Assembly (NCBI GenBank): GCA_027920525.1 | Contig: CP115858.1 | Location: 1,426,001 to 1,490,000, forward strand | Source of the DNA: Chryseobacterium daecheongense | Lineage (GTDB): Bacteria > Bacteroidota > Bacteroidia > Flavobacteriales > Weeksellaceae | DNA length: 64,000 nucleotides | Direction of reading: 5' to 3' | In this document: piece after piece, positions 862 to 23,787 of the stretch | Position numbering within the stretch: position 1 is the first letter of the stretch | Layout: every line of letters starts with the position of its first letter | Notes under the pieces: model-generated | The model's input: only the letters and a program-made list of their open reading frames with translations | Told to the model about the DNA's origin: nothing | The model's database searches: none | Translations under genes and position numbers: made by a program

Positions 862-1425
862 ATGAAACAAAAATTTGAAAACTTATGTCTTAAGATCAAT
901 ATATGGTTATTTATAGTACCAATGGGTATACTATTCGGAATAATGTCTTTTTTTCTTATTCCGGGTCTGCAGGCGCACCTTGGCACTACCCAGCTTTTGG
1001 ACACCATGTTCAGTGGATATTCTACGGAATATGCCGAATATTTAATGCAGAAACTCGGTCATGAAGGAAGACATTCCTATCTGTCTCTTGAGCTATATGC
1101 AGATGTCCCGTTTATTTTCTTTTATGTGACAGTATTTACCCTTCTTACCGTGCGATTACTTATCAAAAACAGATTATGGAATAGCTGGTTCCGGTTTATT
1201 GCTTTTCTTCCGTTACTGGCTGGAATTTTCGATTGGTTAGAAAATAGTATGATCATTAGTGTACTTATTCAATATCCTGATATTAACGGCAAATTGATAT
1301 CAATATCATCATTTGCTACGCATATGAAAGGATGTTTTCTTATACTGATGTTTCTCTCATTGCTTCTGAATTTAATGATGATATTATACAGATTCATTGT
1401 TTCCAAAAGTAATCATGATTTTTAA
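862..1425 (+). CDS. Membrane protein of unknown function, four TM segments
   Basis: This is a 187-residue protein with hydrophobic segments near residues 13-33, 83-102, 110-130 and 155-178. A polar loop follows the first segment (about 40-75). No family motif was recognised. The gene stands alone between a divergent LuxR regulator and a convergent DUF2911 gene, with a shared terminator downstream. It is probably an integral inner-membrane protein. The reading frame has normal composition, so it is likely real. Confidence 0.65.
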   Translation: MKQKFENLCLKINIWLFIVPMGILFGIMSFFLIPGLQAHLGTTQLLDTMFSGYSTEYAEYLMQKLGHEGRHSYLSLELYADVPFIFFYVTVFTLLTVRLLIKNRLWNSWFRFIAFLPLLAGIFDWLENSMIISVLIQYPDINGKLISISSFATHMKGCFLILMFLSLLLNLMMILYRFIVSKSNHDF

Positions 1426-9207: not shown

Positions 9208-9720
9208 TTACAAAGTGTTTTTTGCAGAATCACTTTGTTCTGAAGCATCCTTAAAGATCATAAAGTTTTTAGTATTTCGTATTTCATAATCCACAGTTCT
9301 TTTCAATGGTTTATTATCATTTATATTATATATATTAAATTCTAAACTATCAGCCTGTTGTTCTTCAGGATATTTTGAAACCTTTTGTTTCAAATTTGTT
9401 ATACAATTTACATCTATTGAACTATTGGGTAAAATAAAAATATCTTGATCGTCAGAAAATTGAAGATTTAAAGTATCTTTTTTATAAATAACTTTGTACG
9501 AATCTATAATATCCTGCAATTTTATTTTAATAGTATCTCTGCTATTATTTGATAAATAAAGGAAATTCTCTAGATATAGATCTAAATGATTATTTTTATT
9601 CGCCTTGTAAACAACATATTGATAATGAATTCGTGTTTCAATTTTTTTTTCTTCTTGCTTACATGATATAAGAGAAAGAATGAATAGATATATAAAATTT
9701 TTAATTGCCAGTTGCTCCAT
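9208..9720 (-). CDS. Lipoprotein, probable immunity protein of the RHS toxin
   Basis: This is a 170-residue protein starting at the ATG at 9720; a further upstream ATG at 9729 is possible. The signal peptide ends in a lipobox, LSLISCKQEE, with the lipidated Cys near residue 20. The rest is a beta-rich polar domain with no family I recognise. Its start overlaps the last 20 bases of the RHS gene, the normal place for a cognate immunity gene. A membrane-anchored periplasmic immunity protein would fit a toxin that acts in the periplasm. The role is inferred from position only. Confidence 0.65.
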   Translation of the reverse strand: MEQLAIKNFIYLFILSLISCKQEEKKIETRIHYQYVVYKANKNNHLDLYLENFLYLSNNSRDTIKIKLQDIIDSYKVIYKKDTLNLQFSDDQDIFILPNSSIDVNCITNLKQKVSKYPEEQQADSLEFNIYNINDNKPLKRTVDYEIRNTKNFMIFKDASEQSDSAKNTL

Positions 9721-12700
9721 TTTTAACATCTTTATAGTTACTTAATATTAATTTTTGATAATCGAGAGTAGTTTTCTTAAATGTAGGAGAATTAATTTGA
9801 TTTTTGTACAAAATTAAGTGCTCATTTCTTTGAGCAACATCTGAGTCATCAATAGGAGATTGCATGTTTACAGTTAAATGGCTAACCTTACCACCCTCAT
9901 GTTCTAGAGTACTTATTAAATTATATTTATCATTTAAATAGCCATTTAAATGCCCATTAGTAACAGTAAAGTTAATTGTTCTATCATGTTTTATTGTACT
10001 TAAGACTCCCTTATAAGAATATGTTCCACCATTAAAAGTATTAAATGTTCCACTTTTTAAAATAGGTTGTCCACCTTCCCACTTCTGACCATTCCATACA
10101 GAACCTGAAAATTCTCCATTTCTGAGGTTTGCTAAATCTACACCAGCCGCTTTTGCATAATATTTTGCTATATTCATAATAATAGAAAAATTATTTTTAT
10201 CAAAAATATAATCTTTTAATTCTACAGATAGCCAAGGAGCTGTATTTAGGGCCCCTGTAATAGGGTTTTGAAAATCAATAACAATATTATTTGTTTTTTT
10301 ATTATCCGTATATAAAAACTTTCCAAATTGATTAAAATGATCATCAGGAGGATTATTATCTCCATTTCCAAATTGGCTGAAATTAAACCCAGTAAAATAA
10401 TTATTTCCCAATTCAGAGCTTAGGGACATGCTTGCTTTATATGCTGAAAACATCTGTCGTGCAGCTTCTCCTGTATAAGTTGTTACGTCATTTCCATCCG
10501 GATCAATAAACATTATAGGATTATTTACAGCATAATTATAGGGACTGTGTCTTCTATATTTTTCAGACATAGCATCTATAACTCCCCATCTTCCTAAGTC
10601 TGGCATATAGAACCGTGCTCCATAATCATAGAATCCTGTTTCCTGGATTTCCTTCCCATTATATTTATAATTATTATATCCCCCTAAAAGACCTTTTCCT
10701 TGTCCAATATGATTCATCCCAAATGCATAATAGTTATTGGTATCGGTAATTTCAAGAGCACCTGCGCTGTTTTTAGCATAGCTCACCCTGGCATTTCCCA
10801 GGTGATCTTTGTACTGGTAAATATAGCGGTTTTCTTTAAAACTGTAATACCCTTCAGCAGTTGGAACAAAATCAAGAATCCATTGTGGATCCAATGGTAC
10901 TGGTTCTAAAACAGGATCTCCATCTTTAAATGCTTCCTGTTCAAATGCCACACTGGTTTTACACCATAAGCAAGTGGAAGATTCATAATAACTGTATTGG
11001 AAACCATCCAAATAATCAATTATATTTTTTGTTGTAGGCTTACCTTTCCCTCCACCTCTCGTATTCGTCTTACGAATCTTTACTCCATCAGCACGATATA
11101 AATAGTTTAATCCAAAATTAACAACTCCGGAAAAGGGATCATTCTGAGTAATTGAATATGAATCTGGTAAATTAAGATAATTATAGGCAATTGTATTAAT
11201 TCCTTTATCCTTCATATTGATCATATTACCGTTAAGGTCATAATCAATGGGATTATTTCCACCCTCATAACCGGTGTCATTCATTGAATTTTCAATCACT
11301 TTATCCAAACGATTTCCTGTATATTGGTAATCAAGATTATCAACTACCGTAGGAGTAAGTTGTGATACGGGAACAGCTGTACGTTTAAGGTTGTTTATAT
11401 TTCCATTCAGGTCATAGGTAAGATATTCGTCATACTTACCTTCATTTCCTGTAATGGGCTCATTATAGAGAGCTTTTTTTAACCTGTCCAGATTATCATA
11501 CTCATAGTTGTATCTTTTTAATATATCTTCTGAAGCATTTTTCCAATCTACTTCCGCGATGTTTCCGTTAAACCTTCCTGGTGCAATGTTGGTGTTAACA
11601 GGATTGTTATACCTCATTTCGTACCCAAAGAGCTTACCGTTAAGATTTGCAGGATCATTGATCTTGGTCAGCCATCCCTGGATGTTATACGTATAATTAA
11701 TAATTTGAAGTGGCGATGCAATGCTTGTTCCACCTACTTTTTTGCTTCTTAATTGAGATAATTCATTGTAATCATTCTGTGTCAGAATTTCTTCTGGGTT
11801 ACTATCTACTTTGTGTTTATTGACCAATAACCTGTTTTGATTGTCATAGGTAAAGGTCTGGGTAATTACCTTTTCAACATCTGTTGCCAGTCTTTTGTGG
11901 TAAACCTTGGTTTGTTTTGCTAACCCTGTAAAATCAAGTTCTGATTCTGTTTTCGTATATCCACCTAAATGGTTGACTGAATAAGTCCCTATAATCCTTC
12001 CTTTATTGTCATAGAAGTTATAGCCACTAGTCCAGTTATCATCTTCTATATTTTTAACCAGTGTCATTACTGGAAGGCCTTTAGTACTTATAGAATTTCC
12101 CGTAGAATTATCCGTAATTACAGAACTTCCTAAAATATCAGTTGGAAAAGTTGGATTAAAACTATATACCGGATAGGTATCATAATAGCTAATACTCAAA
12201 AGTACATTGATTGAATTGGGATAACTTGTGTTATTATTACTATAATACACTCCACGGCCACCTACAATAAATCCTACAGAAGCCATTCTTACTACATTAT
12301 TATTCCCTTTAGCATCTACCAATGCCTGTTCAGCAACTCTTCCTGCTGTTCCGTAGGCTTGCGTTGATGTATAAATTCCAGTATAAGCGATTCTTCCAAA
12401 CTGGTCATATTTTGAAAAAAACCATTGCCTGGAATCTCCCATTTTGGCATCCTGGGTCATTATGAGTCTATTCTGTTTGTCGTAAATAAAATATTCCCAG
12501 CCTTTTCCTGGAAGCTTCTTTTCAACCTGCCTACCTTTACTGTCATATTTATATTGGTAACAAAAATTGTTTACAACGGTTTCATTAAGAGTTCCTGCAG
12601 AGGCCATTGGTGGGATAACATAGACAAGTTGCTTGTAGTCATTGTAAAGATAGTAGGTATCGGCATTTTGTGACGCATTTATTACCTTTCTTATCAATAC

Positions 12701-13354
12701 CGTTTGTCCAGAACCGTCTTTAAATTCTATGGTCTTGTTTCCATCCTGATCTGTCACCGTATTTTTCATTAATTTCCCAACAGCATATTCAGAAACGGTA
12801 TATTTCAGTTCATTCTTGTATAATTTTTCGGTTAGATCCCAGGTCGTTACCACTTCATACTGTTTGACATGGTCGGCTAAGCTATTTATATCATATCCGA
12901 AAGTAATTGGCTTATTATTCCATGCATTTCCTACCTGTCTTTGATCAAAAACCCTTTCCAAGGGAGACTTTTCAAGGGTCTTCTCTGTATATGTTTTTTC
13001 ACCTCCATAAAAATTGGTAGCATCCGCTACCGGATAAGGAACCATTCCCGCACTTTGAGGATAAATATTTCCATTAGTAGTAGACAATTGTGGAACCGGA
13101 AGATAGCTTCTGGTTTGCTTTCCCAATTCATCGTATACAATGGGTGTTACCAAATCCTTTCCTGTAGGTGTAGCTTTTATGCCCACAATCTGTTTTGGTC
13201 TTCCCAAATAGTCAAGATACTGTACTGTTTCGAATTTCTTGATACAATCCGCATCTAAACAGGTTGCACTTTGTATATAGTTTTCCGTGCTTGTTTGTGC
13301 ATATGAAAATCCTGCTACAAACAATGATATGTATAATATTATTCTTTTTCTCAT
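9701..13354 (-). CDS. RHS-repeat toxin protein with DUF6443 N-terminus
   Basis: The ATG at 13354 is chosen because it opens a clear signal peptide (MRKRIILYISLFVAGFSYAQ); the protein is then 1217 residues. DUF6443 follows (ENYIQSATCLDADCIKKFET, QYLDYLGRPKQ), then YD-type repeats. The RHS core lies near residues 850-985: YQYKDHLGNARVSY, GFYDYGARFYMPDLGRWG and SPYNYAVNNPIMFIDPDG. About 240 residues after the DPDG junction form the variable toxin tip. The tip contains STLEHEGGKVSHL, similar to metallopeptidase helices, but the second His of HExxH is Lys. An immunity lipoprotein follows with overlap. The RHS shell presumably encloses the toxin. Confidence 0.85.
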   Translation of the reverse strand: MRKRIILYISLFVAGFSYAQTSTENYIQSATCLDADCIKKFETVQYLDYLGRPKQIVGIKATPTGKDLVTPIVYDELGKQTRSYLPVPQLSTTNGNIYPQSAGMVPYPVADATNFYGGEKTYTEKTLEKSPLERVFDQRQVGNAWNNKPITFGYDINSLADHVKQYEVVTTWDLTEKLYKNELKYTVSEYAVGKLMKNTVTDQDGNKTIEFKDGSGQTVLIRKVINASQNADTYYLYNDYKQLVYVIPPMASAGTLNETVVNNFCYQYKYDSKGRQVEKKLPGKGWEYFIYDKQNRLIMTQDAKMGDSRQWFFSKYDQFGRIAYTGIYTSTQAYGTAGRVAEQALVDAKGNNNVVRMASVGFIVGGRGVYYSNNNTSYPNSINVLLSISYYDTYPVYSFNPTFPTDILGSSVITDNSTGNSISTKGLPVMTLVKNIEDDNWTSGYNFYDNKGRIIGTYSVNHLGGYTKTESELDFTGLAKQTKVYHKRLATDVEKVITQTFTYDNQNRLLVNKHKVDSNPEEILTQNDYNELSQLRSKKVGGTSIASPLQIINYTYNIQGWLTKINDPANLNGKLFGYEMRYNNPVNTNIAPGRFNGNIAEVDWKNASEDILKRYNYEYDNLDRLKKALYNEPITGNEGKYDEYLTYDLNGNINNLKRTAVPVSQLTPTVVDNLDYQYTGNRLDKVIENSMNDTGYEGGNNPIDYDLNGNMINMKDKGINTIAYNYLNLPDSYSITQNDPFSGVVNFGLNYLYRADGVKIRKTNTRGGGKGKPTTKNIIDYLDGFQYSYYESSTCLWCKTSVAFEQEAFKDGDPVLEPVPLDPQWILDFVPTAEGYYSFKENRYIYQYKDHLGNARVSYAKNSAGALEITDTNNYYAFGMNHIGQGKGLLGGYNNYKYNGKEIQETGFYDYGARFYMPDLGRWGVIDAMSEKYRRHSPYNYAVNNPIMFIDPDGNDVTTYTGEAARQMFSAYKASMSLSSELGNNYFTGFNFSQFGNGDNNPPDDHFNQFGKFLYTDNKKTNNIVIDFQNPITGALNTAPWLSVELKDYIFDKNNFSIIMNIAKYYAKAAGVDLANLRNGEFSGSVWNGQKWEGGQPILKSGTFNTFNGGTYSYKGVLSTIKHDRTINFTVTNGHLNGYLNDKYNLISTLEHEGGKVSHLTVNMQSPIDDSDVAQRNEHLILYKNQINSPTFKKTTLDYQKLILSNYKDVKNGATGN

Positions 13355-13433
13355 AAAGTTTTGTTTTCTGTATTCCTGTAATCTGTACTTACTTATCACT
13401 CATTATTACATTTTACGCTAATACATTTTACAT

Positions 13434-16190
13434 TTAATGTTTGTAGTTATATCTATATTTTTTTAATACTTTTCCGTTTTCATCGATAACCTGATCCAGC
13501 CTGTTGGCACTATCATATTTATAAATCTCACGGATCCCTGAAGGAGGGGTCATACTTTTCATACCGATCAAAGGATCATAAACATAGGTTGTGATCTGGT
13601 AATTTCTGAGATTGGAGTTATTTCTGAAAAGGCTCAAAGCATTCTGCAGATTCTGTTCAGATACATCATCTTTATCAGCATCAGATTTAGCTATAATATC
13701 TGCTACATATGAATTTATTTGACTGTACGTCGCGCCTTCAATCTTAGCAATAGGCAGTGTCTTATTATAACCCCAAACTATTGAAACAGGGATTCCGTCT
13801 TTAGTCGTATACTGTTGTAAATTCCCTTTGATATCATATTGATTGAAAATCGTTTCTGACGCAAGGATATTTTGAGTATCATAAGAAATGATAGAAGATG
13901 GAAACTTGTTAGCAACATTATCATATTTTGTTTCTGATTTTGACATTATTTTTCCTGTATCAGAAGGTGTTTTCTTTATTACAGAAGTTATTTCCAAAGG
14001 AATACCAATCATATTGGCTCCAATAAGCTTTTGATTGTTTTTATCCAAAGCATATTGATAAGTTGTTTCCTCAATTGTCCCATCAAAAGAAATAAGTTTT
14101 TCAAGATTTATCTTATAATTACTCGTATTTCTTACAGTCTCTGATTGCGATTCACTTATACCATTATTAAAAAAAGTTTTAGAGTTTATTTTTTGATTTT
14201 TTATCCATGAAGTGTTCATATAAAAATTACCTCCCATCCACGTCGGAATTGACAAATATGTTGGAGATGCATCATCATTGATCGTATATTCAAAAACATC
14301 TTCAGTAATCTTTTGATTCAAAGAATTATATATCTCTTTTTTTTCTATTAGACCACTTCTCATAATGTTAAAATATGGCCAGTAAGCCCGGTCATGATCA
14401 GCAGTTGGCTGAGAAGGATAAGCATCAGCTGCTTTAAAGTAATATTTCGTATAACCATTTCCATTAGTTACTTTTACATTTTTATAGACAGCTATTGGAT
14501 TTACAGGTTTGAGATCTGAATTTGATCCCATCTCTGTATAATATCCACTAGTGATTGAAGGGTCATCAAATTTGTTGTAATTATACTCTTCCATTCTGGC
14601 TGCAACCAAGCCTACAGATTCTTCATTAAAATATTTTATACTCCTAATCCTTAGCAGCCTGGCTTTTCCAGCGATCAAATTAACCGTTTCAATAGGGTCC
14701 TGGTCATAGTAAAGCGCTTTAAAATTAATTGGGCCATTGAAGGGAGCTGAAGGATCTGAATTTTCTAAAGAAACATAGTATTCTCCTGGTGGATATATCC
14801 TTTTTTCCATTGATTGCGAGTTAACATCTAGTGTGAAGGGAAGCATTTTATAAGTGTTTCCTTCTTTTTTAAAAAAATTCAACGACCAAAATCCAGAAAG
14901 AAGCTGTGAGGGTATATTTATCATTATTTCTTTATTTTGGGTAAGAGTGAAATAATATTTTTTAGTACTGGCATTAAATTGATCAAAAGATACAGTAGCC
15001 AATTCTACAGGTGGTGATGTATATGTTTTTGTAATATCTGTATAATAAGAACGAACAAGATCAAAATTATATTCAACCATTCCTGCGGTTGGTAATTTAA
15101 CATTTTTTAATACTTCTAATGATTCTTGGTCACCCTCAGAAATAGGACTTGATACTAATTGATAATTAAATGTATACTTTTCAATCTCATTTTCAGCAGC
15201 ATCCACTTGCTTAAAAGCTCTTAGTCTTCGATTGGGTGAGTAATCATAATCAAATTTGTATCTTTTAATAAATTGATTATTAATATTTTTTAAAACAATA
15301 TTGTTAATGCTAAATCTATCGGTCTTTTTATCTACCGACTCATTTTTATCATAATTTAACTCTATGATTCCTCTATCTTTAATTTCTATTTTGCTAACTT
15401 TGTTCGTTTCTGATTCTATGACTAAATTTGAAGTACCTGGTACATATTTTGTGTCTTTTAGGTAACTATATTTTACAAGTTCTTGATTGTTTTCATCCAA
15501 AATAGAATTTAAATAAAAGGCACTCCTATAATTTCTATCGGCATACATTGATCCTTCCAATGGGTGATCATACATCCATACACGCATTGTTGAAAGATCA
15601 TAATTTTGAAATTTGTATTTAATTCCTTTATCATTTGTTACAGTAAAAGAGTCAAATATTAAGGTGGAAGTATTGCTTGTTCTTGTATATTCTAATTTAG
15701 AATTAAATGGACTTAACTTTATAATTTCAAATACATCGCTTCCTTTATTTCTCAGAACTCTGAATTTCCCTGTTTCTCCAGGAATACTAAAATTGTAAAT
15801 ATCATCAAATTCATTTTTTATGTAATAAAAGGCTGATGAATTGTCAAATGATTCATCAAAATCACCCAAAACTTCTCTAGAGATAACACCTTGTCCTAAT
15901 AATGCCCAACCCGTTCCTACTTCTCCCGACCACATCTCCTTAGAAACATTTCCTGTATGGTAGCTTAGTTGTAAATTAACACTTACAAACTTATTATTTG
16001 TAGATACCTCAAACAAAGAATAGGATATATCTGGAACTCCAGTTTGAACAGAAACAGGAATATTATTATAGGTAGCCAGCGAAGCTACCGAGGGTACAGG
16101 CATTATACCTATTGTATTTTGGCTTTGGGTCTGACCATGATATAAAGTATATGCAAAAATGTATATCAGTAGTATATATATATTCCTCAT
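13434..16190 (-). CDS. RHS/TcB-like secreted protein
   Basis: This 918-residue protein has a signal peptide (MRNIYILLIYIFAYTLYHGQ). The N-terminal part (ASLATYNNIPVSVQTGVPDI, then SYHTGNVSKEMWSGEVGTGW) resembles the start of TcB/SpvB-like shells. The C-terminal 200 residues carry YD-repeat-like segments (IVWGYNKTLPIAKIEGATYS, IREIYKYDSANRLDQVIDEN). It has no toxin tip. It lies 79 bases upstream of the DUF6443 RHS protein start and 7 bases downstream of the T9SS protein, forming one operon. The pairing of this protein with a DUF6443 RHS protein is common in Chryseobacterium. It may supply part of the shell; that role is inference. Confidence 0.75.
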   Translation of the reverse strand: MRNIYILLIYIFAYTLYHGQTQSQNTIGIMPVPSVASLATYNNIPVSVQTGVPDISYSLFEVSTNNKFVSVNLQLSYHTGNVSKEMWSGEVGTGWALLGQGVISREVLGDFDESFDNSSAFYYIKNEFDDIYNFSIPGETGKFRVLRNKGSDVFEIIKLSPFNSKLEYTRTSNTSTLIFDSFTVTNDKGIKYKFQNYDLSTMRVWMYDHPLEGSMYADRNYRSAFYLNSILDENNQELVKYSYLKDTKYVPGTSNLVIESETNKVSKIEIKDRGIIELNYDKNESVDKKTDRFSINNIVLKNINNQFIKRYKFDYDYSPNRRLRAFKQVDAAENEIEKYTFNYQLVSSPISEGDQESLEVLKNVKLPTAGMVEYNFDLVRSYYTDITKTYTSPPVELATVSFDQFNASTKKYYFTLTQNKEIMINIPSQLLSGFWSLNFFKKEGNTYKMLPFTLDVNSQSMEKRIYPPGEYYVSLENSDPSAPFNGPINFKALYYDQDPIETVNLIAGKARLLRIRSIKYFNEESVGLVAARMEEYNYNKFDDPSITSGYYTEMGSNSDLKPVNPIAVYKNVKVTNGNGYTKYYFKAADAYPSQPTADHDRAYWPYFNIMRSGLIEKKEIYNSLNQKITEDVFEYTINDDASPTYLSIPTWMGGNFYMNTSWIKNQKINSKTFFNNGISESQSETVRNTSNYKINLEKLISFDGTIEETTYQYALDKNNQKLIGANMIGIPLEITSVIKKTPSDTGKIMSKSETKYDNVANKFPSSIISYDTQNILASETIFNQYDIKGNLQQYTTKDGIPVSIVWGYNKTLPIAKIEGATYSQINSYVADIIAKSDADKDDVSEQNLQNALSLFRNNSNLRNYQITTYVYDPLIGMKSMTPPSGIREIYKYDSANRLDQVIDENGKVLKKYRYNYKH

Positions 16191-18722: not shown

Positions 18723-19031
18723 ATGTATAAATGGGAAATAGAAGAATTAAAGTTTCAAATTGGAAAGCTTATTCAATTATATAGGTTAAAAAGAGGGCTT
18801 TCACAGTTTCAGCTTGGAAATGAGCTCAATATTTCAAGTAACCATGTTGGTAGAATTGAAAGAGCAGAAACGAATCCAACCATTGAAAGTCTTGTCACAT
18901 TCTGTAATTTTCTTGAAATTGATCTATTACATTTATTTACAAAATTAAATGAGAAAGAATTAAAGAGGATTGAAATTGAAATCGATCAGCTACAAAAAGA
19001 ATTTAAAAATCAAAATAAGAGAAAATCCTGA
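18723..19031 (+). CDS. XRE-family transcriptional regulator with coiled-coil tail
   Basis: This 102-residue protein has an HTH_3 domain at about residues 12-70: LIQLYRLKRGLSQFQLGNEL, then ISSNHVGRIERAETNPTIES. The last 30 residues (KELKRIEIEIDQLQKEFKNQ) look like a short coiled coil for dimer formation. Small XRE proteins of this kind often control neighbouring defence or mobile genes. It precedes the Shedu gene on the same strand, but a terminator and a separate promoter lie between them, so it is probably its own unit and may act as a regulator in trans. The target is inference. Confidence 0.8.
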   Translation: MYKWEIEELKFQIGKLIQLYRLKRGLSQFQLGNELNISSNHVGRIERAETNPTIESLVTFCNFLEIDLLHLFTKLNEKELKRIEIEIDQLQKEFKNQNKRKS

Positions 19032-19234: not shown

Positions 19235-20497
19235 ATGGCAATAAAAGGAGAAATTTTAAAAAAAACATTAATCTCTAAAGATGTATATCATTACATTGAC
19301 GAAGAAAATTCAATAGATTATATTTCTAAGGAAATTTTTAAAAAAGTTGATGAAGAAATTCATTATCCTAGAGGATTTGATAGCCAGCATAAGTATAAAA
19401 CTATAAGGAAATTTATATATAAAGGCTTTAAAGGTAATTTACCCGTTGGTGTTGTGAAATCATTTAAATTAGGATATGGTTTCACAAAAACATTAAATCC
19501 ATTTGCATTTTACATAAACGATAACTTCCACATTGAAGAAGTAATAATTGAAAATGAAGGAATAACAAAGCTAGATAAGAAGAATAGAAAATTATTTTTA
19601 TCTGAAAAAGATTTGGAATATTTAAATAAATCATTCAGTGAAATTTATAAGAAAAATAAAGGTGAAATTAGTTTAAGTTTACAGATTGGATTAAATAAAC
19701 TATTTCCAAGGAATTTTAAGGCACCTGAAAAAACATATGTCGAAAATGATCTAGCATCTTCAATAGCAAAATGGGGAAATTCAATTGATGAATTTTCAGA
19801 TGCAGATAAAAGTGCAATTCAAGACTTATTTGATAAATTATCTTTAAGCACAGACTTTTTGTCAACAGATTCATTAGCTAAAACAAAAGAAATAGTTGAT
19901 AGTAAGTATATACAAAAAACTCTTAAAAAATTTGATGAGATTTATTCATTAAAAAGTAATGCTGATAATTTGGAACAAAAGTGGCAGGAGTTTCTAAGAG
20001 ATAATAGTTGGGTCCTTTCAACAATATTTGCACAACCAGTTATTTTACATAAACGAGAGGCGTATGTTGGTGGTAAAACTTTAGATAATACTAACGGTAA
20101 ATATAACGACTTCTTATTAAAAAATTTAAGTGACAACGTTTCATTTCTAGAAATTAAAACTCATAAAACCAAATTGACTGAAAATATAGCCTACAGAGGA
20201 GATGATGTATTCGGAGCTTCAAAAGATTTATCTGGATCCGTTGCACAAGTGCTTAATCAAAGGGATAACTTTCAAAAGGAATTTTACAATTTGAAAGGAA
20301 AGAATAAAACAAAAGAAAATTTTGAGACTTTTAATTCTAAATGTATTGTATTAATTGGAAATTTGAATGATTTATCAGAACAACAACGCTATTCTTTTGA
20401 AATACAAAGAAATAATTATAAGGATGCTGAAATTATAACTTTTGATGAACTAAAAGAGAAAATTCAAAGTTTACAATATTTACTAAATCAGAAATAA
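19235..20497 (+). CDS. sduA: Shedu-type defence nuclease (SduA, DUF4263)
   Basis: This is a 420-residue protein. The C-terminal half carries the Shedu/DUF4263 domain: LEQKWQEFLRDNSWVLSTIF near residue 247, then a PD-(D/E)XK-like core GKYNDFLLKN...VSFLEIKTHKTKL (Asp and Glu-x-Lys), and YRGDDVFGASKDLSGSVAQV. Shedu proteins protect against phage by nuclease action as oligomers. The N-terminal 240 residues are variable in the family and probably sense the phage. It is a single-gene system here, convergent with the reverse transcriptase. The domain call is strong; activity is inferred from the family. Confidence 0.88.
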   Translation: MAIKGEILKKTLISKDVYHYIDEENSIDYISKEIFKKVDEEIHYPRGFDSQHKYKTIRKFIYKGFKGNLPVGVVKSFKLGYGFTKTLNPFAFYINDNFHIEEVIIENEGITKLDKKNRKLFLSEKDLEYLNKSFSEIYKKNKGEISLSLQIGLNKLFPRNFKAPEKTYVENDLASSIAKWGNSIDEFSDADKSAIQDLFDKLSLSTDFLSTDSLAKTKEIVDSKYIQKTLKKFDEIYSLKSNADNLEQKWQEFLRDNSWVLSTIFAQPVILHKREAYVGGKTLDNTNGKYNDFLLKNLSDNVSFLEIKTHKTKLTENIAYRGDDVFGASKDLSGSVAQVLNQRDNFQKEFYNLKGKNKTKENFETFNSKCIVLIGNLNDLSEQQRYSFEIQRNNYKDAEIITFDELKEKIQSLQYLLNQK

Positions 20498-20530: not shown

Positions 20531-22141
20531 TTATGATTTAAATTGTTTGCTAATACATCTAAATACAATATGCTTTCTCTTCTTTATCTGATTCATAAAG
20601 TGCTCCTCCTCAAAAATTGAACAGCACCGTTTTACATAAGAATAATAATTGGAATCTTTTTTAGGATTTGTAGGCCTATAATGAGAAAATTCATAAAAGC
20701 CTCTTTCATTTTTTCTTAATGAGCTAAATTTCCTTCTTAAACTTTTTTTCTCAGAACTTTCTGAATCACTTATTTTTAATGGTCTATTATATAATTTTTT
20801 AACCTGACTCATAAAAATCGCTTTTTTTGTTTCAGGATTTTTATCTAAAACCTTTTTAATCCTATGACACCTACGCTTTGTAACTGAAATTATTTTTCTG
20901 TAATATTTTGATAAATTAGCTGATTTAATTACAGTTTTATAGCCTCTAAATTCAAAACCTAAATATAATAATGGAGTTTCCGTTTCAAGGTTAGTTTTTT
21001 TATCAATCTTAAAACATGCTAATCTTGTATTGGTATGTTTTGGAGAATACATAACATTTCTAAAAATAAATTTTTCAGTTTTATTTTCACTAATATTCAC
21101 TTTACTTTCTTTTACAAGAGCATAAATATATTCCTCAATAAATTCTGATTGACTAGGTTTGCAAACTACAACAATATCATCCGAATATCGTCTGTAATAC
21201 ACCCCCCTCTCTTCAACAAGATCAGTTATAATTTTCAAATCAAAGTCGTATAAATACAAATTTGCAAGTAAAGCACTAATTGGTAAACCTTGTGGAATTC
21301 CAACATTAATTTTATCCTTCGAGTAAAAAGGATTTTTATAAATACGTAATTTTCCCTCCTTAATTGTTCTCCGAAATTCTTCATTACTTTGAAAGAAGCA
21401 TTTATATCCTTTTTCTTTTCTAATCTTTGCAAGTTTTGATTCATCAAAGCCCAACTTTCTTCCATTTCGATTATTCCGGACTCTTAAGTCATCAAGCAGA
21501 ACATATCTAAATTTTGTACAAGCTTTAAACACATTATAATGGTCTTTTGGAAGCTCATCAACACCTAAAAGCCACTTCCATTTTTGTTTTAAGAATTGAT
21601 GATTCAAACTTGGAAAGAAGCTTTTCAAATCAAACGTTAAAACACAAACTTCTTCACCTTTACCCCTCTTCTTGATTTCATCAAATGCTTCTTTTGCAAA
21701 ATGGATTGTGCTTTTTCCTTTTTTATCTTCTTTCGAGATTTCAATTTTACGATATGCGTTTACTGAAGAATCTAATTGGGGATTTTCCTTCAACTTTTTT
21801 TCATATAATTCGTCAAGTATTTCTTTGTAATATCCATAAATCAAAGCATCCATATGACTGGCATAATGTAAAGGTCTAAGCTTGTTTGATTTTTCAGCTT
21901 TTCCTGTTTTCTCATTCACATGACAGTGCCTTCTACCTCGAGTTTTGTGTTTTTCTGGATCTGCTTTCTTGTATTTTCGATCGATTATATTTGTATGAAT
22001 AAGTGGATAAAACGCATACTTTGCAACAAAATTTTTATTAATTATGTTACGGTAGTAATTTTGCCATTCTTCTCCTATTTTCAGAGAGGGGGAAATGTGT
22101 AAGTAGCCTTTTTCTTTAAGCCAGCTAGGTTTCTCATTCAT
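20531..22141 (-). CDS. UG/Abi-type defence reverse transcriptase (DRT-like)
   Basis: The ATG at 22141 is preferred (MNEKPSWLKEKGYLHIS), giving 536 residues; a TTG 15 bases upstream lies inside the inverted repeat. Motifs: KLRPLHYASHMDALIYGYYK (UG-type N-terminal region), catalytic VLTFDLKSFFPSLNH, GIPQGLPISALLANLYL, and RRYSDDIVVV with YSDD in place of YADD. The C-terminal 130 residues are a Lys-rich helical extension, as in defence RTs. It lacks the VTG motif of retrons and the maturase/HNH parts of group II introns. A structured RNA lies directly upstream. It is convergent with Shedu. I cannot assign the exact UG class. Confidence 0.8.
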   Translation of the reverse strand: MNEKPSWLKEKGYLHISPSLKIGEEWQNYYRNIINKNFVAKYAFYPLIHTNIIDRKYKKADPEKHKTRGRRHCHVNEKTGKAEKSNKLRPLHYASHMDALIYGYYKEILDELYEKKLKENPQLDSSVNAYRKIEISKEDKKGKSTIHFAKEAFDEIKKRGKGEEVCVLTFDLKSFFPSLNHQFLKQKWKWLLGVDELPKDHYNVFKACTKFRYVLLDDLRVRNNRNGRKLGFDESKLAKIRKEKGYKCFFQSNEEFRRTIKEGKLRIYKNPFYSKDKINVGIPQGLPISALLANLYLYDFDLKIITDLVEERGVYYRRYSDDIVVVCKPSQSEFIEEYIYALVKESKVNISENKTEKFIFRNVMYSPKHTNTRLACFKIDKKTNLETETPLLYLGFEFRGYKTVIKSANLSKYYRKIISVTKRRCHRIKKVLDKNPETKKAIFMSQVKKLYNRPLKISDSESSEKKSLRRKFSSLRKNERGFYEFSHYRPTNPKKDSNYYSYVKRCCSIFEEEHFMNQIKKRKHIVFRCISKQFKS

Positions 22142-22149
22142 AAAAAATA

Positions 22150-22521
22150 CTTGCAAAAAGTCAATAACGTTTTATAATTACATACAGCTTTCGCTCAGAT
22201 AAGTACCCAAATTATTAATATTGAGTCATTGATAATTCCGTAATTGGTGGAAATAGTATTAAGCATAGCAGAGACTGTAATCCCAGAACTAATAGTTATA
22301 CTGATAAATTATGAAGACAAAGATGATAAAGTTAATAAATAAAGTTACCCTTTTGGTAGTTTCAATAATTCTTAGTAAATTGGTACTGATTTCCTTTATA
22401 TCGGGCTGTCCTTTCGGTGAGCCTTCGATGAAATTCGCTAACCTTATAACCCACTTGTTATAAGTAAATCTAAAAAGATCTTTTATCTTATTCTAGACGT
22501 AATTACACTACTTTTTGCAAG
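22150..22521 (-). ncRNA. Probable structured non-coding RNA of the reverse transcriptase
   Basis: A perfect 12-bp inverted repeat, CTTGCAAAAAGT / ACTTTTTGCAAG, closes this region (22510-22521 and 22150-22161). Inside it TAATTAC/GTAATTA (22500-22506, 22175-22181) can extend the closing stem. Local hairpins include TTATAAC/GTTATAA (22444-22463) and GGCU..CC-GAAA-GG..AGCC (22404-22423) with a GNRA loop, plus an imperfect helix at 22204-22248. A TATTTTTG box ends 5 bases before the first arm, so transcription would start at the base of the stem. The second arm ends 8 bases before the RT start codon. Upstream ncRNAs are known for several DRT systems. No protein frame is seen here. Confidence 0.65.
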
Positions 22522-22526
22522 CATTT

Positions 22527-22534
22527 CAAAAATA
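22527..22534 (-). promoter_or_regulatory. Candidate -7 box for the ncRNA/RT transcript
   Basis: TATTTTTG on the minus strand, 5 bases before the closing repeat of the ncRNA. The expected start point falls on the repeat. No clear -33 box. Confidence 0.45.
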
Positions 22535-22546
22535 TGAAATAATTCT

Positions 22547-22554
22547 TATATTTG
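22547..22554 (+). promoter_or_regulatory. Candidate -7 box for the divergent gene at 22582
   Basis: TATATTTG is a perfect consensus match 27 bases before the ATG. It lies back to back with the RT promoter, 12 bases apart, so the two cannot easily be occupied together. Confidence 0.45.
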
Positions 22555-22581
22555 GGATAATAACCATGAAAATAATTAATA

Positions 22582-23787
22582 ATGAGCTCGTTTAATATCG
22601 GGGATTTCGTATGTCTTCAAAATCATCCTTATTTAAGTTCAAATCACAAAATTAAAATTGCTGCAAATGCAGATATGACACCTCCAATTATGATTGTTGG
22701 CGAGATTTTGAATAAGGATGAATACAATACTTCAACTGGTAAGCAATCTGAAATTCAACTTCGGTGTTATTATTATTCTACAAAAGAAGGAAAATATATA
22801 GATAAATGGATTAAAGCTGAACAATTAAAAAAACTTGCTGCTCCAGAAACATATTTAAATATTGATGAATTTATTAAAATTGATGATTTTGATTTAGAGT
22901 ATTTGAAAAGTTTATACCTGAATAAAATGGTTTGTTTAAAAAGTGTAGATTTCGAACTCAATAAAAAAAAGATTTTTATTGACAGTTCAGATGGGATCCG
23001 TACAAATAAAGAAAATAACCATCTTGAATTCCTACCTCCAGTAATGACTATTATAGATATTGTGAAAAATAAGGAGGAAAAAAGATTTTCTTCTACTAAA
23101 TCAGACTCTATTGAAAAAGATCTTTCTAAATATATTTTTAAATGTAAGTGGTATAATCCTAAAACTTCATCTTATTCAGAAGAATTTATACCAAGTAAAA
23201 TTTTAGGTTTTATTGTTAATCAGACAGAGTTTGTTGAGATGATTATGGCAGGAATTGCCGAAAATAATTTCTTAATTGCAAGTTTAAAAGGAAAACACAT
23301 ATTAGAATTAGAAGATAGCCCTAACAAGGTGATAAATAACATTATTAAACCTATAGAGATCATTTTCAATCACTATTACTACAAAATAAATGCATTTGAC
23401 TATGCAAAACAAAAGACATCATCATATACAATAGACAATCTTTATTCATTAGATTTTATTGAAAAATCAACAATCTTTGCCTCTACATATCCTAGATATA
23501 AGACCACTTTCTATCCCATCACTGAAAATACCTTCCATGAACAAGAATATTGTTTCATAAAATATAGGGATAAATTTAACAAAATAACTAATCGGACTAT
23601 TAAAGTATTATATAAGGAACCTTATATCGATCCAGAAAGTAATGAAGATTCTTTTTTTATTGTTGCGAACTGTCTTCTACGAAATGGCCATATAAGACAC
23701 TTTAAATTAAGTCAAATTTTAGAATCAACAGAGATTATTAATGGTATAAAAATATTTGAAGAGATTGAAATCGAAGAAGTCTCCTGA
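22582..23787 (+). CDS. Unknown protein with three YodC-like (DUF2158-type) modules
   Basis: This 401-residue protein is not recognised as a whole. It seems to contain repeated small beta modules. The first (about 5-85) reads GDFVCLQNHPYL...PPIMIVGEI...LRCYYYSTKEGKYIDKWI. The second (about 108-205) reads NKMVCLKSVDFELN...LPPVMTIIDI...FKCKWYNPKTSSYSEEFI. A weaker third (about 315-385) ends FIVANCLLRNGHIRHFKLSQ. The pattern G-x-V-C-L...P-x-M-x-V...C-x-W/Y resembles DUF2158/YodC domains of SH3-like fold. It is divergent from the reverse transcriptase with overlapping promoters, so it may be part of the island. Function unknown. Confidence 0.55.
   Translation: MSSFNIGDFVCLQNHPYLSSNHKIKIAANADMTPPIMIVGEILNKDEYNTSTGKQSEIQLRCYYYSTKEGKYIDKWIKAEQLKKLAAPETYLNIDEFIKIDDFDLEYLKSLYLNKMVCLKSVDFELNKKKIFIDSSDGIRTNKENNHLEFLPPVMTIIDIVKNKEEKRFSSTKSDSIEKDLSKYIFKCKWYNPKTSSYSEEFIPSKILGFIVNQTEFVEMIMAGIAENNFLIASLKGKHILELEDSPNKVINNIIKPIEIIFNHYYYKINAFDYAKQKTSSYTIDNLYSLDFIEKSTIFASTYPRYKTTFYPITENTFHEQEYCFIKYRDKFNKITNRTIKVLYKEPYIDPESNEDSFFIVANCLLRNGHIRHFKLSQILESTEIINGIKIFEEIEIEEVS

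Follow-up and report, generated by a model that had tools for sequence, protein, structure and literature searches.

A DRT2-like reverse transcriptase unit of Chryseobacterium daecheongense with a conserved scaffold RNA, a putative, apparently exchangeable template and a WYL/YodC-like partner

The point of reference for the system discussed here is the DRT2 system (UG2; neo) of Klebsiella pneumoniae, a defence-associated reverse transcriptase (DRT). Wilkinson et al. (PMC12039810) define its repeated unit as the reverse complement of what lies between two ACA motifs; in their 42 homologs it is divisible by three, and it has one stop-free frame. DRT9 and DRT10 (PMC12483538, PMC12632851) combine, like the present system, a Class 2 reverse transcriptase (RT) with an RNA and make repetitive complementary DNA (cDNA), whereas they produce poly-dA or short tandem repeats and the template here exceeds 100 bases and, in sister leaders, has an open frame. 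Tang et al. (PMC11100668) deal with more divergent DRT2 clades, in which the RNA is predictable and Neo annotation is harder, and raise alternative mechanisms as a possibility. This work concerns a locus of C. daecheongense (assembly GCA_027920525.1) lying in a stretch of 64,000 nucleotides of contig CP115858.1 (positions 1,426,001 to 1,490,000), hereafter the window, whose numbering is used throughout. We propose, with a probability of roughly 0.72, that it is a three-part DRT2-like phage-defence unit made of the RT, a scaffold RNA upstream of it and a divergent WYL/YodC-like protein, in which concatemeric cDNA would encode a Neo-like protein.

The RT gene (20531..22141, minus strand) encodes 536 amino acids, is intact with its YSDD motif kept, has a structured RNA directly upstream and is matched both by Drt2 profiles and by the Drt2 fold; compared with the 425 amino acids of the Klebsiella enzyme, its extra residues are spread as insertions. 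Since it stays below the NCBIfam Drt2 equivalog cut-off (299.8 against 390 bits), the first of several points on the other side of the balance, and since an endless frame is missing from the window's subclade, we file it as DRT2-like. The preliminary description of this DNA, which had proposed a DRT system that has an RNA upstream and left its class unassigned, is upheld in these points: judged from its sequence, the system probably works like DRT2 and its class is DRT2/UG2-like. The further idea of that description, that the RNA might cover the RT start codon and so provide feedback, is a conjecture. The comparison below uses 32 related leaders, with RTs 46-100% identical to that of the window by tblastn, of which six (L001 and L027-L031) form the window's subclade and the remaining 26 are called sister leaders. 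Two leaders having no 5′ anchor (L063, L064) stand outside both counts, L024 and L025 duplicate L027 and L030, respectively, and we left out fragments or other RTs (L013-L023, L044) and loci whose match begins too late in the protein to cut a leader (L043, L054, L059, L061). One genome-contig scan had a single protein as query (three loci); viral contigs gave three distant loci, with the partner gene at none of the three.

A scaffold common to the 32 leaders flanks a variable middle on both sides, and the structured RNA is predicted to extend over 22150..22521 (minus strand, like all its parts). Its outer stem P1 (12-bp arms, 22510..22521 and 22150..22161), the P2 stem TAATTAC/GTAATTA (22499..22507 and 22173..22181) and the P5 hairpin TTATAAC/GTTATAA (22443..22464), which borders the template and ends in AGG, TGG or CGG in the aligned leaders, had been read from the single sequence and are in place, as are the eight bases between the second P1 arm and the RT start codon (ATG at 22141). 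P1, P2 and P3 (AGATAA/TTATCT, 22483..22488 and 22197..22202) are spelled differently in other subclades and still form. In an arm-swap test on 11 representatives, none of 5000 derangements did as well as each leader's own pairing, either for P1 or for P3, although the best ‘P1’ helix of one representative, L045, is really its P2 helix; covariation with homologous RT leaders, put forward earlier as a check, is in this way found for P1 and for P3, a stem previously unlisted. Over 13 distinct rows, 76 of the 78 P3 cells are paired, with changes on both sides at several pairs. Since the 5′ arm had been selected, within a stretch of 26 bases, as the one best matching the 3′ arm, it is the swap test and not the pairing percentage that counts as evidence. 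P2, for which per-sequence helices take the place of a swap test, has as its first pair C-G in one, T-A in four and A-T in six of the 13 rows, being unpaired in two. The P6 hairpin ACTCA..TGGGT (22205..22226) has the same letters in all 13 rows and therefore speaks of covariation neither way, whilst P4 (22467..22480) and P7 (22186..22196) are visible in the aligned leaders. Run on the 5′ and 3′ parts put together, RNAalifold returned hardly any structure, as the outer arms of different subclades misalign; helices of each sequence and arm swapping were used instead. Folding of the single leader is unremarkable (z of -1.53, with 9 of 100 shuffles folding equally well). The GAAA hairpin once counted as part of this structure exists (22404-22423), but sits in the variable template region, outside the conserved scaffold.

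Upstream of P1, the TATTTTTG box (22527..22534), suggested before as the RNA's own promoter box, is of the form TAnnTTTG, which we take to be the Bacteroidota-type -7 promoter. The motif, sought 55-106 bases before the end of the P5 hairpin, occurs in one alignment column in 31 of the 32 leaders, L069 carrying a variant, and transcription of the RNA would start just downstream of it. Together, these comparisons argue that the leader RNA is real. As to its novelty, Rfam gives no match at gathering within the window (a single snoRNA match, with E of 0.83, falls in 22100-22580), which places this leader RNA outside Rfam, but DRT2 RNAs as a kind are already published.

The variable middle (outer limits 22230..22441, minus strand) is presumably the template for reverse transcription. 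In all 26 sister leaders one antisense frame is open throughout this region once 11 bases have been cut from the 5′ end and 2 from the 3′ end, and the stop-free stretches reach 41 to 65 codons in the 22 leaders listed. Antisense openness exceeds that of dinucleotide shuffles (Fisher p 2.6e-6 over nine template families, each represented by one leader chosen by hand), and changes fall 96/56/96 on the three codon positions, fewest on the second (p 0.0016, eight pairs picked as independent). Outside those counts, 13 further partner-bearing leaders all have antisense p of 0.046 or less, with sense p under 0.05 in two of them, and among 15 leaders without the partner p is under 0.05 in seven (antisense) and six (sense). 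The drt2 leader of R. beringeri carries a 42-amino-acid antisense open reading frame (ORF) annotated by its depositor. Two side observations belong here. Deeper partner-bearing DRT2 leaders with other scaffolds (L048-L051, L072-L076, L026, L055) show long antisense open frames, that of L055 running for 90 codons, i.e., all 270 bases scanned. In L092 a depositor's ‘hypothetical protein’ (1177-1305, minus strand) lies antisense in a drt2 leader and possibly represents part of a neo frame; more such entries may exist in databases.

For the presumed jump repeat, an anchor-free search compared the 17 bases at the beginning of the region with the 22 at its end; the longest motif that they share has a spacing divisible by three in 23 of the 24 sister leaders with a single answer. 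The motif contains ATTTA or GTTTA in 17 of the 26 and just TTT in L034, L008, L036 and L037, so that where Klebsiella has ACA the window's clade has an RTTTA-like flank. In several subclades the 5′ copy is followed by TCAA and the 3′ copy by CGAA; measured at that place, the units span 102 to 162 bases, or 174 in L005, whose 5′ anchor is a guess. Hand-set anchors were taken from alignments, the 3′ one by its TTA pattern, which means that a shared TTTA is partly built in. The weight lies on the consistent spacing and not on motif length, and related leaders are non-independent. For comparison, the typical DRT2 locus of Psychrobacter (L080) has an ACA-to-ACA unit of 105 bases whose frame is endless, and Photobacterium (L079) has no such pair of ACA motifs and a 62-codon antisense stretch.

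The template seems, moreover, to behave as a cassette. Three pairs of leaders (L032/L033, L004/L034 and L035/L008) have scaffolds 94-100% identical and templates only 54.1, 55.3 and 56.4% identical, against means of 50.0 to 50.7 and maxima of 56.8, 55.6 and 54.3 for shuffled templates; L035/L008 just exceeds its shuffle maximum and is non-independent of L004/L034. Template matches are found elsewhere, for L034 in L036 (80%) and for L004 in L003 (83%). These patterns indicate that the cargo is replaced under a constant scaffold whilst the spacing stays a multiple of three.

Several results have to be set against our proposal, in addition to the profile score. The 26 sister leaders amount to about nine template families and are hence non-independent. 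Sense frames are open too in nine of them, against a sum of about 1.9 for the listed shuffle probabilities, and one sense frame of L031 also scored p 0.005. The antisense products are hydrophobic, but beyond their shuffles (p under 0.05) in just 15 of 27 leaders, with p from 0.000 to 0.385. The longest shared motif of L046 is spaced at 115, not divisible by three, the spacing is ambiguous in L002 and L005, and the motif is longer than in shuffled flanks (p 0.05 or less) in 3 of the 26 only. A scan for TTG-N17-23-TAnnTTTG over about 113 junctions of 22 leaders found no significant junction promoter (best 6.86 of 9; null mean 6.41, null maximum 6.73 of 60); TTG-N18-20-TAAAnTA recurs at one trial junction, picked after the fact. 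The window's own subclade departs from its sisters: a fully open antisense frame occurs in none of its six leaders, antisense stretches at their longest do not stand out (p 0.10 in L001, 0.058 in L029), and the presumed jump repeat is ambiguous, in L001 being either GAATT at 198 or AATT at 190 (5′ copy AATT at 22432..22435 and 3′ copy AATT at 22242..22245, minus strand). Candidate unit lengths in this subclade are 190, 196, 198 or 199. A frame that would stay open across concatenated cDNA, a check put forward in the preliminary description, is found by frame in the sister leaders and not here.

In each of the six leaders every antisense frame stops between the 3′ limit and an ATG (22311 in the window) or shortly past it, and therefore a junction near the conserved flanks cannot yield an endless frame; for such junctions the gene of this subclade is probably finite. 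What is kept in both halves of the subclade is an ORF of 42 to 43 codons from the ATG to the 5′ limit (22311..22441, plus strand, frame f0 in the window), the hydrophobic, Neo-like first part of the candidate gene. The hand-anchored distance is 2 mod 3 in all six leaders, versus 1 mod 3 in all 26 sisters, and therefore one template jump would take the ORF into frame f2. In this subclade f2 stays open over 28 to 32 codons (in the window 32 codons and then a stop, 22244..22342, plus strand). It is also the frame most alike between the subclade halves (matrix sum 50 versus 25 and 14), and in two hand-picked pairs third codon positions account for 9 of its 14 substitutions (p 0.017). The f2 segment of L030 lacks hydrophobicity (0.88), and with a junction at 198 bases the ORF would be shorter. 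The f2 stop is a candidate, and no more, for the end of the ORF. A passage from f0 to f1 ending at an ATGA overlap was considered as well and set aside, as the anchored distance predicts f2.

In the window, the f0 ORF continues in genomic DNA straight to a stop ending at 22463, and throughout the subclade the frame is not open ahead of the ATG. Both facts would suit a conventional small membrane protein encoded on the plus strand (22311 to 22463), with the opposite RNA as its antisense regulator in the manner of a type I toxin-antitoxin and the RT making another product, the more so as type I toxins are typically hydrophobic single-helix peptides. Such an arrangement, however, has no need of a flank-motif distance that is a multiple of three, would not call for the frame to be open upstream of the ATG too, as it is in the 26 sister leaders, and leaves the agreement of the antisense scheme with known DRT2 aside. 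Nor does the promoter box favour it: on the antisense strand of template and 3′ scaffold, TAnnTTTG is missing from 21 of the 32 leaders, that of the window included, and in the other 11 (against 0 on the sense strand) it has no common place. We consider this explanation unlikely. The stops in all three frames of six members and the weaker flanking repeat could, alternatively, mean that the neo frame of this subclade has decayed, that the template is shorter (one lying wholly in the 5′ part and clear of the conserved flanks could still carry an open f0) or that the cDNA acts as DNA, a signal or a sink, and not as a gene. RNA and DRT2-like RT would then be the same, yet this reading sits poorly with an intact YSDD enzyme and a scaffold that pairs, with the 42- to 43-codon ORF of both subclade halves and with the third-position bias of f2, and we hold it to be distinctly improbable.

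We thus return to the DRT2-like unit and to how it might operate, by analogy with Klebsiella. DRT2 is also characterised by a promoter that forms anew over the repeat junction and by cDNA made in rolling-circle fashion when phage infects, with defence of the abortive kind. The RT would bind the RNA scaffold and copy the middle region from its 3′ to its 5′ limit; the new cDNA end would re-anneal to the second copy of the short direct repeat and copying would restart, yielding concatemeric cDNA. Once double-stranded, this cDNA would be transcribed antisense and encode a hydrophobic Neo-like protein, probably acting on the membrane, by which the infected cell would be arrested. In the sister subclades the frame would continue through every repeat, whilst in the window's subclade it would begin at the ATG at 22311, pass the junction and stop in the next repeat, giving a finite small protein. 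Compared with Klebsiella DRT2, the window system has a closing outer stem and the WYL/YodC-like partner, its subclade is closed in every frame, and the scan for a junction promoter gave nothing significant. A bolder and much more tentative version, possible though doubtful, is that in this DRT2 branch template jumping builds a self-terminating gene, whose start lies mid-template and the end of whose frame lies at the other end, the two joined only in cDNA, so that each lap yields one discrete two-helix membrane toxin from exchangeable cassettes, with the WYL partner reading single-stranded cDNA.

The partner gene (22582..23787, plus strand) adjoins the RT and encodes 401 amino acids with a WYL-like domain at about 212-299; PADLOC scores it as RTasWYL-YodC with 369.2 bits, and in its match list residues 211-387 are the well-tested part. 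It is present at all 47 loci of the RT clade and was not found at any of 26 other loci tested, one of which, L081, has only 281 upstream bases. The WYL-domain regulators BrxR, PafBC, DriD and CapW are among the closest known systems, and from its fold the domain may sense single-stranded cDNA or phage single-stranded DNA and so gate the system. In the open-licence PMC literature we found no account linking DRT2 to YodC or to WYL, and none of DRT2/Neo in Bacteroidota or of a DRT2 reverse transcriptase in Chryseobacterium.

Convergent with the RT lies a Shedu SduA-like gene (19235-20497, plus strand; PF14082, PADLOC SduA 224.9 bits), with a small helix-turn-helix (HTH) gene alongside it (18723-19031); the Shedu-like gene was not found in the examined flanks of any relative. 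In a genome of the same species (L090), the same flanks enclose an HTH-like gene, a 670-amino-acid gene whose product has no PADLOC match and a SIR2/ThsA-like gene in place of the system, and the insertion site is therefore a chromosomal defence hotspot. Further away, two large consecutive genes (9701-16190, minus strand; 1232 and 918 amino acids) look, from their translations, like an RHS/YD-repeat pair.

In conclusion, this work describes a clade with readable Neo-like frames, a flank motif of its own, interchangeable cargo and a partner gene, within which the window's subclade seems to break the rule of the never-ending frame. Whether Neo must be endless, whether the template is a swappable module, and what a WYL protein does beside an enzyme that makes single-stranded DNA, become questions that can be put to the test.
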